Part shown: positions 15,517 through 20,881 of the stretch, piece by piece | How the letters are laid out: every line of letters begins with the position of its first letter | Numbering within the stretch: position 1 is the stretch's first letter | NCBI RefSeq assembly: GCF_004117855.1 | Contig: NZ_QWBW01000017.1 | Span: forward strand, 62,749 to 121,366 | Length of the DNA stretch: 58,618 bases | Direction of reading: 5' to 3' | Source: Modicisalibacter coralii | GTDB taxonomy: Bacteria; Pseudomonadota; Gammaproteobacteria; Pseudomonadales; Halomonadaceae | Program-made: the position numbers and the translations under genes | Notes under the pieces: model-generated | The model's database searches: none | The model's input: the letters and a program-made list of their open reading frames with translations, nothing else | What the model was told of the DNA's origin: nothing

Positions 15517-16117
15517 CCGTGCCCGGCGGCGGCACCGGGCGTTACGAGGGGTGGCAGCCGGTCTCGCGTTGTGCCCCGCCCTCGCCCTGGCCGCCGCCAA
15601 TGTTCCGGCGCAGGTCCCCGGGACGTTGCTCGATACCCTGGAAAGCGTGACCCATGCCCGCGGCACTCAGGCCGATGCCGCGACCTCGGCCTGGATCGCC
15701 ACCATGCAGGCGCGTCTGGCGCCGCGGCTGGGCGATCCCCGGGCACGCCGTCGTCTGTTGGCGCGCATCCATGCCGAAGCCCGACTGGCCGGCCTGAGCC
15801 CGGAAATCGTGCTGGCGGTGATTCAGGTCGAGAGCGGCTTTCGCCGCGACGCCGAATCGAGCGCCGGTGCCCAGGGCCTGATGCAGGTGATGCCGTTCTG
15901 GAAACGTGTCATCGGCCGGCGCGACGACGATCTCTTCGACCCCGTCACGAACCTGCGCTACGGCTGCACGATCCTCGGTTACTACCTGCGGCTCGAAAGC
16001 GGCGATCTGACCCGGGCCCTGGCCCGCTACAACGGCAGTCTGGGCGAGACCGGCTACCCGGAACGGGTGTTGCGGGCCTGGCAGACACGCTGGTGGCTGG
16101 CCGCGACGCTCGAATGA
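15497..16117 (+). CDS. Lytic transglycosylase (SLT domain), exported
   Basis: This 206-residue protein has an arginine-rich N-terminus followed by a hydrophobic stretch ending ALALAAA (residues 18-34), a signal peptide. The transglycosylase domain contains the catalytic Glu112 in IQVESGF, followed by [13 protein letters not shown] and [13 protein letters not shown]. It cleaves peptidoglycan glycan strands in the periplasm, forming 1,6-anhydromuramyl ends, the products that AmpG imports. The GTG start at 15497 lies inside the proS end, so a later start (GTG near 15551) cannot be excluded, but that would remove the charged n-region. The domain is small, with little beyond the SLT fold. Confidence 0.9.
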
Positions 16118-16240
16118 GCGACTTGACGAAACCGGGATAATGGCTCAGAAATCGATAAGGATCCCAGCAATTCTCCGTTGCCAACGCCATGCCCCCCGTT
16201 CGATGTTCGCTCCCCGCCCGCCCGCACAGGACTCCCCCGC

Positions 16241-17722
16241 GTGATCGCCACCCTTCGCCGTTGCCTCGGTCTCGTCATCTTCAGCCTGGCGCTGGTGGCC
16301 AGTCGTGCCGCGGAGCGTCTGTTGCGCGGCTCTTCGCCATGCTTTCCACGGCAAACCTTCTCGAGCCGACTTTACAGCCGCGTCAACGGCCTTCAGGCCA
16401 ACCTGTTGACCTGGCAGGCCCGCCTGCAGCCGCATGACGTCGATCCGCTGACGGGGATCGGCACCTGCCAGGCCGCGCTGGCGGAAATCGACCGGCTGAT
16501 CGAGCGCGGTAAGCCCTTTTCGCTGGCGAGCATGAGCATCGACAACATCAAGGCGATCAACGAGCGCCTGGGGCATGCGGTGGGCGATCAGTTGCTGGTG
16601 TCGCTGGCGCGACGCCTGATGCGTCTGGAGATCCACCGCGGCCGCGTCTACCGCCTGGGGGGCGACGAGTTCCTGATACTCGCCGCCCCACCGGCCGCCG
16701 GCGAGTGCTTCGACGAGCGTCTGCGCGAACGGCTCTGCCAGCCGCTCGAGCTCGACGGCACCTCGTTGATCCCGTCGCTGTCGCTGGCCGGTCTGCGCTA
16801 TCCCGAGAATGGTCAGGACGCGCGTCGCCTGCTGCGCCGTTCGCGGATCGCCCTGGCCCACGCCCGCCAGGCCCACGACGGTTACCACGCCTACGAAAGC
16901 CGGCTCGACCATCACCACGAGCGCGAACGTCAATTGCTGCGCGACATGGTCCTCGCCGTCCGTGAGCAGCAGTTGAGGATCGTCTACCAGCCCAAGATCC
17001 GCATCGCCGATGGCAGCGTGGTGGGTTTCGAGGCACTGATGCAGTGGCAGCATCCCGATCTGGGCCTGCTGCAGGCCGACGAATTCCTGCCGCTGGCGGT
17101 GGACTCCGGTCACATGGCGCTGCTGGGCGACTGGATGCTTCAGCACGTGATCGCCCAGATGGCGGTCTGGGTGCACGCGCGGCACCCCCAGCACGTTGCC
17201 GTCAACCTGTCCGCCGTGGACCTCGAGGACGCCCATCTCGGTCAGCGCATTACCGGCTGGCTCGAGGCACACGGCGTGGATCCGCGGCTGTTGATGCTCG
17301 AGATCACCGAGCAGTCGATGATGCGCGAACCGACGCTGGCCGCGCGCCTGCTCGCCGAACTGCGCGACCTGGGGATCCGGGTGGCCATCGACGATTTCGG
17401 CACCGGCTACTCGTCGCTGGCCCAGCTGCGCCGGTTGCCGCTGGACGTGCTCAAGATCGACAAGTCCTTCGTCCTCGAACTGCCCGCGCAGCCGGAGGAT
17501 GCGCTGATCGTCAACGCCAGCATCGCGCTGGCCCACAGCTTCGGCCTGGAGGTGATCGCCGAGGGGGTCGAGACCCCTCAGCACCTGCGTCTGCTCGCCG
17601 AGGCGGGCTGCGACCAGGCCCAGGGCTACCTGATCTCTCACGCTCTCGACGCCGACGAGGTCCCCGCCTGGCTGGAAGCCTATCGACGCCGGCCCCTGAA
17701 CGCCTTGCGCGGCGTGAACTGA
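16241..17722 (+). CDS. GGDEF-EAL domain protein (cyclic di-GMP turnover)
   Basis: This 493-residue protein has one probable membrane segment at the N-terminus (about residues 8-22), then a GGDEF domain starting DPLTGIG with an intact GGDEF at 140-144 and an EAL domain with intact EAL at 264-266 in FEALMQW. DDFGTGYSSL and KIDKSFV, which carry metal-binding and catalytic residues, are present, as is EGVET. Both activities could therefore be functional; the phosphodiesterase motifs are the better preserved. No sensory domain separates the membrane segment from GGDEF. The GTG at 16241 with AGGA nine bases upstream was preferred over a TTG at 16178. It probably tunes motility or biofilm formation. 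Confidence 0.9.
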   Translation: MIATLRRCLGLVIFSLALVASRAAERLLRGSSPCFPRQTFSSRLYSRVNGLQANLLTWQARLQPHDVDPLTGIGTCQAALAEIDRLIERGKPFSLASMSIDNIKAINERLGHAVGDQLLVSLARRLMRLEIHRGRVYRLGGDEFLILAAPPAAGECFDERLRERLCQPLELDGTSLIPSLSLAGLRYPENGQDARRLLRRSRIALAHARQAHDGYHAYESRLDHHHERERQLLRDMVLAVREQQLRIVYQPKIRIADGSVVGFEALMQWQHPDLGLLQADEFLPLAVDSGHMALLGDWMLQHVIAQMAVWVHARHPQHVAVNLSAVDLEDAHLGQRITGWLEAHGVDPRLLMLEITEQSMMREPTLAARLLAELRDLGIRVAIDDFGTGYSSLAQLRRLPLDVLKIDKSFVLELPAQPEDALIVNASIALAHSFGLEVIAEGVETPQHLRLLAEAGCDQAQGYLISHALDADEVPAWLEAYRRRPLNALRGVN

Positions 17723-17788
17723 GCGCTCGGTGGAACCGCCGACATCCTCCGGGGTCAAAGCGCTTACAGTCATGGAAGGAAGAGCCGC

Positions 17789-17986
17789 ATGCTTTCGGAC
17801 GCGATCGAGATCAGGAAGATCACCACGGGCGAGACGACACGCTACGAAGTCTACGACAGCGACACCGGCACCAGCCTGGGCCTCTTCGAGAGCCGGGAAC
17901 GTGCCGAGACCGAGCGACACCACCTCCAGCAATCCGCACGGGCGCTGCACATCCGCAGCAGACACGACGACACCGACACGGGCTGA
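17789..17986 (+). CDS. Small hypothetical protein, 65 residues
   Basis: A good ribosome binding site (GGAAGGAAGAG) precedes the ATG at 17789. The product MLSDAIEIRKITTGETTRY... is acidic at its end and has alternating beta-type and charged helical segments (YEVYDSDTGTSLGLF, then SRERAETERHHLQQ). I recognise no family. It stands alone between the GGDEF-EAL gene and a predicted minus-strand small RNA whose terminator begins 39 bases downstream. Codon use is like that of neighbouring genes, which supports it being real. Confidence 0.6.
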   Translation: MLSDAIEIRKITTGETTRYEVYDSDTGTSLGLFESRERAETERHHLQQSARALHIRSRHDDTDTG

Positions 17987-18024
17987 GCCGTCGGGGGATC
18001 GGGAAGCGCGGATGGCACCGATAT

Positions 18025-18050
18025 AAAAAAGCCGGCCCCTGAGGACCGGC
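18025..18050 (-). terminator. Intrinsic terminator of the predicted small RNA
   Basis: On the minus strand an 8-bp stem (GCCGGTCC with GGGCCGGC, one G-U pair) and a TCAG loop are followed by six T residues. No plus-strand T-run follows, so it terminates leftward transcription. It could also end slyD-rfaH readthrough. Confidence 0.85.
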
Positions 18051-18144
18051 ACATGGGGCAAATGCCCCTCCCTGACGACATCGTTCGATCCTGAACGACC
18101 GGTGAGAGCGGTTTGCCCCGCCGGTCGCTCATGAGCGATCCGAT
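18025..18144 (-). ncRNA. Predicted FNR/Anr-dependent small RNA, about 120 nt
   Basis: Between the 65-residue gene and the slyD-like gene, the minus strand carries a complete small transcription unit without an annotated gene. It has an FNR-type box and -10 element, a predicted start at 18144, a body of several perfect stems and a strong intrinsic terminator ending at 18025. Stems include a 14-bp palindrome at 18125-18138 (TCGCT, loop CATG, AGCGA) and a 6-bp stem with an AGGATC loop at 18081-18098. A further stem, GGGGC with GCCCC, precedes the terminator. Length and architecture recall E. coli FnrS, but I see no sequence identity with it. An open frame across the region has no coding features. 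The call rests on promoter geometry and terminator. Confidence 0.55.
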
Positions 18145-18150
18145 GTCCTC

Positions 18151-18192
18151 ACTGTAACCAATCCCGTCGCCGCGACGCCTGATCTGGATCAA
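18151..18192 (-). promoter_or_regulatory. Class II FNR/Anr-type promoter of the predicted small RNA
   Basis: Read on the minus strand, TTGATCCAGATCAG (18179-18192) differs by one base from the FNR consensus TTGAT-N4-ATCAA, and a TACAGT -10 hexamer lies at 18151-18156. With transcription starting at the A at 18144, the -10 box ends at -7 and the FNR box centres at -41.5, the exact class II activator position. No -35 box is evident, as expected for an activated promoter. Confidence 0.55.
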
Positions 18193-18256
18193 GACCGCCC
18201 CCTGCACCTGTCGCAGCCAGTTCACCCACTTGATCCCGGTCAGTTTTTCGCGGTTA

Positions 18257-18766
18257 TCAGCCGAACTTGCGGTCCTCCACCTGCGCCGCTTCGACGTCGC
18301 CGGGCAGCGGGTGCCCCTTGGCCAGCTCGGCGCGGGTCGCTTCGCGGATCGCCAGGATCTCGACGTCGTAGCGCAGGGCCCGGCCCGCCAGCGGATGGTT
18401 GGCGTCCACCGTGACCCGGTCGTCAGTAACCTCGAGGATCGTCACGGCACGCGGCCCGTCGGGTCCCTGGGCCTGAAAGCGCATCCCCGGCGCCAGCGTC
18501 TCGGCGCCACCGAAGGCACTGCGCGCCACCGGCTGCACCAAGGCCTCGTCACGCAGGCCATAGGCCTCGGCCGGTTGCAGGGTCACACTCAGGCGAGCCC
18601 CTTCGGCCTGGCCCGCGAGTGAGCGCTCGAGACCGGCGACGATGTTGTCGTGACCGTGGAGGTACTCCAGTGGGGTGTTGCGCTGGCGTGAATCGTCGAG
18701 TACCTCGCCGGCATCGTCACGCAGGGTATAATGCAGGGTCACCACTCGATGGGCGGCGATGGTCAT
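18257..18766 (-). CDS. slyD: FKBP-type peptidyl-prolyl isomerase, SlyD-like
   Basis: This 169-residue protein has the FKBP fold of the SlyD group: VTLHYTLRDDAGEVLDDS at the start, PLEYLHGHDNIVAGLE, an inserted flap domain (about 72-125) and the NHPLAGRALRYDVEI signature. It catalyses proline cis-trans isomerisation and acts as a folding helper in the cytoplasm. Unlike E. coli SlyD it ends DVEDRKFG-like after GDVEAAQ, with no His/Cys-rich nickel-binding tail, so a role in nickel delivery is unlikely. The ATG at 18766 was chosen at the family start. The rfaH-like gene ends 41 bases upstream on the same strand, so the pair is probably one operon. The symbol is by family and not certain. Confidence 0.88.
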   Translation of the reverse strand: MTIAAHRVVTLHYTLRDDAGEVLDDSRQRNTPLEYLHGHDNIVAGLERSLAGQAEGARLSVTLQPAEAYGLRDEALVQPVARSAFGGAETLAPGMRFQAQGPDGPRAVTILEVTDDRVTVDANHPLAGRALRYDVEILAIREATRAELAKGHPLPGDVEAAQVEDRKFG

Positions 18767-18807
18767 GGCGGTCTCCACAAGTCGATGGGAAGGGAAGTCG
18801 TGACAGA

Positions 18808-19341
18808 TCAACGACGGCGCAGATGCTCGACCGGCACCTCGAGACGCTGCTGACCATGCAGGAGGTTGAGCAGCACGATCGCCCGCTCCTCGCCTTTCTG
18901 GCGCTCGAACACGGCGCTCAGGGCGCGGAACGGCCCCTCGCCGATCTCCACCGCTTCGCCGGCGCGGAAATAGACGTTGACGCCGCGCGCGTCGACGCTG
19001 GCTGCCGCGTTGCCGCGCAACGTCTCGACCAGGGCGTCATCGACGGCCACGGGAGCGTCGCCGAAACCCACCAGCTTGAGCACGCCACGGGTCGAGCGGA
19101 TCGGCCGCCAGTTGCTGGCCAGCTTGTCGAGGCGAATGAACAGGTAATACGGAAACAGCGGCTCGTCGAGCCAGCACAACTTGCCCCGGCGCTTCTTCTG
19201 AACCTGCAGCACGGGATGAAAGATCTCGTAGCCCTGGTTGGCCAGATTGTCGCTGGCCCGGAACGATTCGCCACCCTTGCATTGAATCAGATACCAGCGG
19301 GGGATGGCGTCGTCGCTGCTCTTGTCGATCGCGTCATTCAT
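18808..19341 (-). CDS. rfaH: RfaH-like NusG-family transcription antiterminator
   Basis: This 177-residue protein contains an NGN domain opening with RWYLIQCKGGESFRA and continuing FHPVLQVQKKRRGKL and LFPYYLFIRLD, followed by a KOW-type C-terminal part (FRAGEAVEIGEGPFRAL). These are typical of RfaH, a specialised NusG paralogue that binds RNA polymerase at ops elements and promotes reading of long, horizontally acquired or envelope operons. No ops element was noticed in this window. The length exceeds E. coli RfaH (162) by a short N-terminal extension. It lies upstream of the slyD-like gene and diverges from ampG. Confidence 0.9.
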   Translation of the reverse strand: MNDAIDKSSDDAIPRWYLIQCKGGESFRASDNLANQGYEIFHPVLQVQKKRRGKLCWLDEPLFPYYLFIRLDKLASNWRPIRSTRGVLKLVGFGDAPVAVDDALVETLRGNAAASVDARGVNVYFRAGEAVEIGEGPFRALSAVFERQKGEERAIVLLNLLHGQQRLEVPVEHLRRR

Positions 19342-19510
19342 GCACTCATCCTTGCGTCAGCCGCTCGACCCGGCGAGTGGCTGGCGAGCATTGATCTCCG
19401 TGCGTCCAACCACGTAAGTTAGCCGCTTATCGATGTCATCCTACCATCGTTGATCGCCGTGATTGAGCGGCCCACGTCAAATTCCGCATTCCAGGCAGGA
19501 GAGCTTCACC

Positions 19511-20881
19511 ATGCCCCGTAACGCCCCCCATCGCTCCTGGCGAGACGCCCTGGCCGTATACTGTCAGGCGCCCGTCGTCGCGATGCTGTTTCTGGGCTTC
19601 GCCGCCGGGTTGCCGTTCCTGCTGGTGTTTTCCACCCTCACCGCCTGGCTGCGCGATGCCAGCGTCGATGTTACGGCGATCGGCTTCTTCTCGTGGATCG
19701 GCATGCTCTACTCCATCAAGCTGGTCTGGGCCCCGGTGGTCGATCGTCTGCCACTGCCGGGGCTGACACGGCTGCTCGGCCAACGACGCGGCTGGATGCT
19801 GATCGCCCAGTTGACGATCGCCGGCGGCCTGGTCGGCCTGGCGAGTCTCGATCCCCGCGAGAGCCTGGCGCTGGTCGCCGGCTTCGCCCTGCTGGTGGCC
19901 TTCGGTGCCGCCACCCAGGACATCGTCATCGACGCCTTTCGTATCGAATCCGCGGGCGAGGAGGTCCAGGCGGCCATGGCCTCGACCTACATCATCGGCT
20001 ATCGCGGGGGGCTACTGGCGGCCGGCGCGGGAGCGCTCTACATCGCCGACCTGGCCTCGTGGCACGTCGCCTATCTGAGCATGGCGGCACTGGTCGGGGT
20101 GGGGCTGATCACCGTGCTGCTGCGCCCCGAGCCACCGCGCGCCTCGCTGGCCGGGCAGTTGATCCACGAGCCCCGGGTACGCGGCTTCCTGCGTGCCAAC
20201 CGTCACCGCCCCCGGGTCTGGCGCCGCCTGGGCGCCTGGGTGACGGGCGCGATCGTCTGCCCCTTCACCGACTTCTTCACGCGCTACGGCCGCCAGGCAC
20301 TGTGGCTCTTGCTGCTGATCGGCCTGTTTCGCATCAGCGACCTGTCGATGGCGGCGATGGCCAACCCGCTGTACATCGACCTGGGATTCTCGCTGTCGCA
20401 GATCGCCAACGTCAGCAAGGTGTTCGGCATCCTCATGAGCATCACCGGTGGCGTGGTCGGCGGGCTGCTGGTGGTGCGCTACGGGATCGCCAACATGCTG
20501 CTGCTGGGGGCGGTGCTCGCGGCGGCCACCAATCTGCTGTTCGCGGCGCTGGCCACCCTGGGCGCGGAACTGCCCATGCTGGTGGTGACGATCATGAGCG
20601 ACAATCTCGCCAACGGCCTGGCCAGCACGGTGTTCATCGCCTTCCTGTCGAGTCTCACCTCGCGCGCCTACACCGCGACCCAGTACGCGCTGTTTTCCTC
20701 GCTGATGACCCTGCCGGGCAAGTTCATCGGCGGGTTCTCGGGGGTCGTGGTGGCCAATCAGGGCTATGCGATCTTCTTTCTCTGGTCGACGGCGCTGGGG
20801 CTACCCGCGATCCTGCTGGCCTGGCGGCTGAGCCGCGATCCACGCCTGATGGCGACACCCCACGCCGGCCAGGGGCGCTGA
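19511..20881 (+). CDS. ampG: AmpG-type muropeptide MFS permease
   Basis: This 456-residue multi-spanning inner-membrane protein starts after an AGGAG site at ATG 19511. FLGFAAGLPFLLVFSTLTAWL, FSWIGMLYSIKLVWAPVVDR and GAATQDIVIDAFRIE are AmpG hallmarks. AmpG imports GlcNAc-1,6-anhydroMurNAc peptides from the periplasm for recycling, which in many species also signals beta-lactamase induction. The window also contains a lytic transglycosylase that would produce such substrates, but no ampR or ampD. It converges on the SEC-C gene with only 9 bases between stops, and a shared inverted repeat spans both stop codons. Confidence 0.92.
   Translation: MPRNAPHRSWRDALAVYCQAPVVAMLFLGFAAGLPFLLVFSTLTAWLRDASVDVTAIGFFSWIGMLYSIKLVWAPVVDRLPLPGLTRLLGQRRGWMLIAQLTIAGGLVGLASLDPRESLALVAGFALLVAFGAATQDIVIDAFRIESAGEEVQAAMASTYIIGYRGGLLAAGAGALYIADLASWHVAYLSMAALVGVGLITVLLRPEPPRASLAGQLIHEPRVRGFLRANRHRPRVWRRLGAWVTGAIVCPFTDFFTRYGRQALWLLLLIGLFRISDLSMAAMANPLYIDLGFSLSQIANVSKVFGILMSITGGVVGGLLVVRYGIANMLLLGAVLAAATNLLFAALATLGAELPMLVVTIMSDNLANGLASTVFIAFLSSLTSRAYTATQYALFSSLMTLPGKFIGGFSGVVVANQGYAIFFLWSTALGLPAILLAWRLSRDPRLMATPHAGQGR

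Follow-up and report, generated by a model that had tools for sequence, protein, structure and literature searches.

Features of the Locus

The DNA studied here, hereafter the window, is a stretch of 58,618 nucleotides from Modicisalibacter coralii (contig NZ_QWBW01000017.1). A segment of it located downstream of a slyD-like gene (named as in a preliminary description of the window) had been proposed to specify a possible new FNR/Anr-controlled small RNA. As stated there, the element is intergenic, with no minus-strand gene behind it. It is approached from the other side by a convergent 65-codon ORF, for which no Pfam or NCBIfam match was obtained at E ≤ 1, and a second, longer convergent plus-strand ORF is also found in its vicinity. 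The locus comprises the following features:

18257..18766, minus strand: slyD-like gene, upstream of the element and on the same strand
18230..18243, minus strand: distal FNR/ANR-like box CTGACCGGGATCAA, centered at about -92.5
18179..18192, minus strand: proximal FNR/ANR-like box TTGATCCAGATCAG, centered at -41.5 (class II); box present in 67/67 loci
18151..18156, minus strand: -10 hexamer TACAGT, 22 nt past the proximal box
18025..18144, minus strand: predicted noncoding transcript of 120 nt, putative start placed from the -10 hexamer
18080..18144, minus strand: 5' domain, predicted to form a single long hairpin, located where relatives have the CcoM ORF
18064..18079, minus strand: conserved tract GTCGTCAGGGAGGGGC, 5' part predicted to be unpaired
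18055..18068, minus strand: hairpin GGGGC-ATTT-GCCCC, from predicted fold and alignment
18025..18050, minus strand: intrinsic terminator, 8-bp stem plus T6; two stem pairs changed on both sides among 36 relatives
17790..17984, plus strand: convergent 65-codon ORF (MLSDAIEIRKITTGETTRYEVYD...)

The elements of the promoter could be verified as originally described. The proximal box (18192-18179, minus strand) is one base off the FNR consensus, agreeing with nine of the ten specified bases of TTGATNNNNATCAA, and is followed after a spacer of 22 nt by TACAGT (18156-18151), which ends at -7 relative to A18144. If transcription starts at this A, the center of the box at 18185.5 would correspond to position -41.5 and the arrangement to class II geometry. 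The distal box CTGACCGGGATCAA (18243-18230, minus strand) had been overlooked. Sites resembling TTGATNNNNATCAA with at most one mismatch occur four times in the window vs. 0.27 expected, such that a box alone constitutes mild evidence. A generic sigma-70 scan of positions 16000-20000 did not reveal any promoter-like site, which is unsurprising where a promoter lacks a good -35 region and depends on an activator. Two proteins of the FNR family scored over the cut-off in the window genome.

At the other end, the strong terminator consists of GCCGGTCC-TCAG-GGGCCGGC (18050-18031, minus strand; eight pairs, seven of them G-C) and the run TTTTTT (18030-18025). The predicted transcript would thus extend from A18144 to T18025 and comprise 120 nt, in line with the length of about 120 nt suggested earlier. 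This RNA does not contain any complete ORF of at least 10 codons and is predicted to fold 5.2 standard deviations below shuffled sequences, with none of 200 shuffles reaching an equally low value.

Relation to ccoM Units of Relatives

Using the window DNA as a query, 14 of 201 genomes of the family yielded matches at E ≤ 0.001, and beyond the window's own genome the 3' part alone aligned. The slyD-like gene was found in 10 other members of the genus, and we inspected the region that follows it in each of these. In six of them (L012-L017), a small ORF (MYWD-AV-FGLVTV...) takes the place that the candidate RNA's 5' half has in the window. The NCBIfam profile NF041600 names the same small protein from another genus as the cytochrome c oxidase subunit CcoM (58.7 bits vs. 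a cut-off of 40), the product of a gene of about 40 codons for a subunit of cbb3 oxidase. In G005 and G011, box, -10 hexamer and 3' element are present and the ORF is absent, while inspection by eye revealed traces alone of ccoM, box and 3' element in G002; nothing is present at the locus in G008.

In the whole family sample, CcoM was detected in 106 of 201 genomes at E ≤ 0.01. In 97 of these it was strong (E ≤ 5.1e-10), and the nine weaker cases (3e-5 to 0.0094) were set aside. In each of the 44 ccoM-bearing family loci that we read, CcoM is encoded after the -10 hexamer and ahead of the 3' element (GTCAGGG tract, hairpin, terminator); this is the case in none of the 23 loci classified as ORF-less (see below). 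The element of the window therefore represents a ccoM transcription unit without ccoM. It shares locus, promoter and 3' end with ccoM (NF041600) of halomonad relatives in the family Halomonadaceae, and the conserved GUCGUCAGGG-AGGGG tract, the hairpin, the terminator, both boxes and the -10 hexamer all remain, whereas the reading frame is absent. In the whole window genome, no CcoM scored over the cut-off, the best value with the 34-residue NF041600 profile being 12.8 of 40 bits. A tblastn-type CcoM match elsewhere in this genome (E 0.0048; 38% over 29 residues, inside a frame of 242 residues) was taken as chance.

All 30 ccoM loci fetched across the order feature an FNR-like box at most 180 nt upstream. 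In G046 (L045, 1490-1800) the ccoM frame is interrupted by an in-frame stop at codon 7 while FNR box and 3' element are kept, which places this unit midway between those with and those without the ORF. Two further observations concern the surroundings of ccoM. Directly past the ccoM/PhrS terminator of genome G161, matches to group II introns are located on the minus strand (L069, 967-1271; RF02001, 124 bits; RF01998, 58 bits), and in family f20 (L096, L104-L110) an apparent tRNA gene, noted by eye, follows ccoM on the opposite strand.

Distribution and Conservation of ORF-less Loci

To survey the family we used R1, a covariance model of the 3' element built from 36 sequences. The 3' elements for the underlying alignment, A1, had been gathered by a regular expression containing TCGTCAGGG, with the unusual rows L069 and L073 excluded, such that the invariance of TCGTCAGGG in A1 is partly due to selection; R1 later recovered variants of the 3' element without it. 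Matches at E ≤ 0.01 were obtained in 228 of 275 family genomes. At E ≤ 1e-5, R1 matched 118 of the 201 genomes also searched for CcoM, including 96 of the 97 with strong CcoM. Among the 118, 22 were without strong CcoM, one of them being G046 with its broken frame. The set of 23 ORF-less loci consists of 21 from the 201-genome sample (R1 at E ≤ 1e-5, no CcoM) and two from outside. The latter stem from 10 genomes that were opened out of 74 new R1 genomes and of which the other eight carry CcoM. The box did not serve as a criterion in choosing these loci. They span five genera, that of the window included, and the RNAs predicted from them range from 70 to 271 nt, the ends in L168 and L170 being set at the T run before the terminator.

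The arrangement of a box, exactly 22 nt and TAnnnT is present in 23/23 ORF-less and in 43/44 ccoM-bearing loci, with 21 nt in the 44th. In resampled sequence, 0.018 of 23 would be expected by chance, and the two controls, reverse strand and downstream stretches, did not yield a single case. This conservation of box, spacer and hexamer is decisive for the reality of the observation, which is thereby confirmed. The preliminary description had suggested looking for conservation among relatives, and box as well as terminator are indeed kept in ORF-less and in ccoM-bearing loci. The 420 nt preceding the 3' element contain two or more boxes in 42/44 ccoM-bearing and in 9/23 ORF-less loci.

In 20 of the 23 ORF-less loci, the RNA has a slyD-like gene as its neighbor. 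A comparison of five Pseudomonas species lists an Anr box ahead of slyD as shared by all of them (PMC6588701). In a SlyD tree of 63 loci, which omits L146, L155 and L166 (no slyD nearby) as well as one duplicate, the ORF-less label requires six changes, at least four of which are forced by well-supported branches. We infer that these changes are losses rather than gains, because ccoM with FNR-like boxes occurs across the order. The unit as a whole is dispensable in some species: G002 retains traces alone, and the genus members G003, G008 and G013 are without any R1 match. The disappearance of box, ORF and element from G002, as judged by eye, illustrates what can happen to such sequences without selection.

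Presence and Absence of the Oxidase

The window genome still encodes the CcoN oxidase. Among the 21 ORF-less genomes of the 201-genome sample, CcoN scored over the cut-off in six (G000, G005, G011, G109, G142, G188), six from genus g7 showed sub-cut-off matches alone (209-300 bits), and in nine no match was found at E ≤ 1e-50. CcoN scores are 730-732 bits in G000, G005 and G011 vs. 751-758 bits in seven ccoM-bearing members of the genus, as if the type of oxidase had changed in the former three.

Exact box spacing in the ORF-less loci, repeated loss of the ORF and the occurrence of the unit in genomes without CcoN together point to selection on the RNA itself.

Relationship to PhrS and Other Small RNAs

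The Rfam model for PhrS (RF01673) covers the ccoM transcript in all three tested loci of family f21, which we take to be Pseudomonadaceae (L082, L083, L087; 135-183 bits). Of the 44 ccoM-bearing loci from Halomonadaceae, 22 were tested and all of these match PhrS at E ≤ 0.05, ten of them at or above the gathering score of 37 bits. The ORF in the RF01673 consensus translates to CcoM (67 bits with the NCBIfam profile) and, on this sequence comparison, the 37-amino acid PhrS peptide is CcoM. In a literature search, we found no paper joining PhrS with CcoM and, among the matches listed, none on the RNA described here; those listed for PhrS together with Halomonas were unrelated as well.

PhrS has been described as an ANR-dependent dual-function small RNA of Pseudomonas (PMC9308961, PMC6700203), and its 37-amino acid peptide has been called highly conserved (PMC8395346, where PhrS is likewise termed a dual-function RNA). 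According to a review from 2022, a physiological function of the peptide has yet to be demonstrated, and the regulatory creg element follows right after the ORF (PMC9308961). Regulation of CRISPR by PhrS is reported to depend on creg and not on the ORF (PMC6700203).

The RNA of the window did not match the Rfam PhrS model at the gathering score nor at E ≤ 10, and the same holds true, at E up to 10, for all 10 ORF-less loci tested out of 23. The connection between ORF-less RNAs and PhrS is therefore drawn from position, promoter and 3' element. Both would stem from the ccoM transcription unit, and an ANR/FNR box driving the promoter is, judged by sequence and spacing, a feature of the window element just as it is of PhrS. 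At the position given for creg (PMC9308961, PMC6700203), just before the terminator, the window RNA has a conserved tract, the letters of which differ from the PhrS consensus. The CcoM ORF of about 37 codons is missing from the window RNA, which has a predicted length of 120 nt compared to about 212 nt for PhrS and obtains no Rfam score. The tract reads GUCGUCAGGGAGGGG in the window and GAGCACGCAAGGCA in the PhrS consensus; known targets of PhrS are pqsR and CRISPR leaders. The window RNA is thus best described as an ORF-less RNA of the PhrS type that falls outside the Rfam family by score and from which the defining ORF is absent. Of the initial proposal, the FNR/ANR-type promoter and the predicted RNA stand. 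The RNA is not simply new, as it constitutes the ORF-less remainder of a ccoM/PhrS unit. That unit is already known as an ANR-controlled dual-function RNA in Pseudomonas, and what is new here is an ORF-less RNA of the PhrS kind.

The comparison with FnrS of Escherichia coli that had originally been drawn captures a shared logic, FnrS being an FNR-induced short RNA with a terminator. Membership in the FnrS family was rejected: no FnrS row appeared in the Rfam search even at E up to 10, and the origin of the two RNAs is different. The search of the window against Rfam, likewise proposed at the outset, yielded no hit at the gathering score, and none of the rows up to E ≤ 10 was credible. Rows for Esr41, Atu_C8, MicF, Ysr49 and others were far below gathering and taken as chance. 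By description alone, the window RNA can be likened to SicX (PA1414) of Pseudomonas aeruginosa, a low-oxygen small RNA that has an Anr box and originates from an annotated protein-coding unit (PMC10247376). The functional part of SicX is located at its 5' end, and its paper reports no homologs outside P. aeruginosa (PMC10247376).

Fold of the Predicted RNA and Search for Targets

The 5' domain shows no conservation of sequence among relatives. Between G005 and G011, 9/52 positions differ in the 5' part and 3/59 elsewhere, with two of the latter forming a compensatory pair in the terminator. When these two sequences were folded jointly, 19/19 pairs of the 5' hairpin were kept, a result equaled in 4/5000 random trials for a fold that was itself built from both sequences; with a fold from one sequence alone, 18/21 pairs were kept and 558/5000 trials did as well. 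Covariation support for the 5' hairpin is weak.

The conserved tract GTCGTCAGGGAGGGGC is a candidate seed or binding site. In 14 genomes of the genus, counting also the sites within the RNA genes themselves, the exact complement CCCTGACGAC was found 222 times and the reversed control pattern 242 times. Complements of the tract are thus not enriched in these genomes. We examined all non-self complement sites in G000 (18/18), G005 (20/20), G006 (7/7) and G004 (7/7) and compared neighboring frames between the genomes. Three sites are shared. Two of them (L235/L253 and L272/L279) have a related frame on the opposite strand, while the third (L237/L258) is located 69 nt ahead of the start of a gene that presumably encodes an AGCS-type symporter, within the 5' leader. 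At this leader, the perfect match extends over 13 bp in G000, 11 bp in G005 (by eye) and 9 bp in G011, over 5-7 bp in other RNA-bearing relatives, and over 8 bp in G008 and 7 bp in G002, both without an R1 match here. As the match fades beyond the closest species and part of it also occurs in a genome that lacks the RNA, we regard the symporter leader as a candidate site and a weak lead.

Discussion

Promoter layout, loss of the ORF and repeated retention of the remainder are documented here at the level of sequence, and the segment has the appearance of a genuine small RNA gene under low-oxygen control, a counterpart of PhrS minus its messenger half. We consider it likely that the element is a small RNA gene that arose from a ccoM (PhrS-type) unit after loss of the CcoM frame and gives rise to an ANR/FNR-induced RNA of about 120 nt, the conserved tract of which would pair with targets. 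With somewhat less assurance, we favor the wider notion that a dual-function RNA was stripped of its coding half several times independently in the Halomonadaceae and that the ANR/FNR-induced regulatory RNA persists even where the oxidase is gone.

Four other explanations deserve consideration. A transcribed but functionless ccoM pseudogene, the promoter and terminator of which have not yet eroded, would be in agreement with the fact that decay does occur, as seen from the traces in G002 (by eye), the early stop in the ccoM frame of G046 and members of the genus without any R1 match. Such a decaying relic would hardly have maintained exact box spacing in 23/23 ORF-less loci or the 3' tract in five genera, including genomes without a CcoN match, after an ORF that was lost several times; moreover, G005 and G011 diverge in the 5' part (9/52) more than elsewhere (3/59), where two of the three differences are a compensatory terminator pair. 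Overall, we judge this explanation unlikely. Slightly more doubtful still is an RNA that acts by binding protein, as a sponge of the RsmA/CsrA or Hfq type, instead of pairing with RNA. GGA-type motifs are a hallmark of RsmA/CsrA-type sponges, and the tract of the window RNA includes GGGA, while a further motif, AGGA, falls within a putative local hairpin (CGTTC-AGGATC-GAACG) that is absent from the minimum-energy fold. Yet GGA is not constant, with four rows from genus g13 reading GTCGTCAGGGTAGGGGG, and sequence conservation is absent from the 5' domain. That the 3' element is a mere terminator for slyD or slyD read-through, and was retained as such, could be derived from the slyD-like gene upstream in 20/23 ORF-less loci but appears very improbable, given that no slyD match was obtained in the sequence retrieved for L146, L155 and L166 and that a terminator needs neither a -10 hexamer with an FNR box at a distance of 22 nt nor an unpaired GUCAGGG tract. 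Finally, the idea that the transcript encodes another small protein, for which short ORFs in several of the longer ORF-less RNAs might be cited, can be given hardly any credence, because nine of the 23 predicted RNAs are without a complete 10-codon ORF (L001, L002, L003, L146, L153, L154, L155, L166, L167) and the two shortest measure 70 and 80 nt.

For the PhrS-type RNA favored here, we infer transcription, control by oxygen, action in trans and targets as follows. Under low oxygen, ANR/FNR would bind to the box at -41.5, perhaps aided by the box near -92. Transcription would start at about 18144 and RNA polymerase would stop at the terminator, yielding a noncoding RNA of about 120 nt composed of the 5' hairpin, the unpaired GUCGUCAGGG, the GGGGC hairpin and the terminator. 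The tract, like creg of PhrS, would most likely pair with target RNAs and alter their translation or stability.

The Halomonadaceae would thereby offer a natural separation experiment: as lineages have lost the peptide and kept the RNA, it can be tested on which of the two halves of a dual-function RNA selection acts. At the same time, a predicted oxygen-controlled small RNA, without an Rfam match in the ORF-less loci tested, would be added to a family of halophiles that is used in biotechnology.
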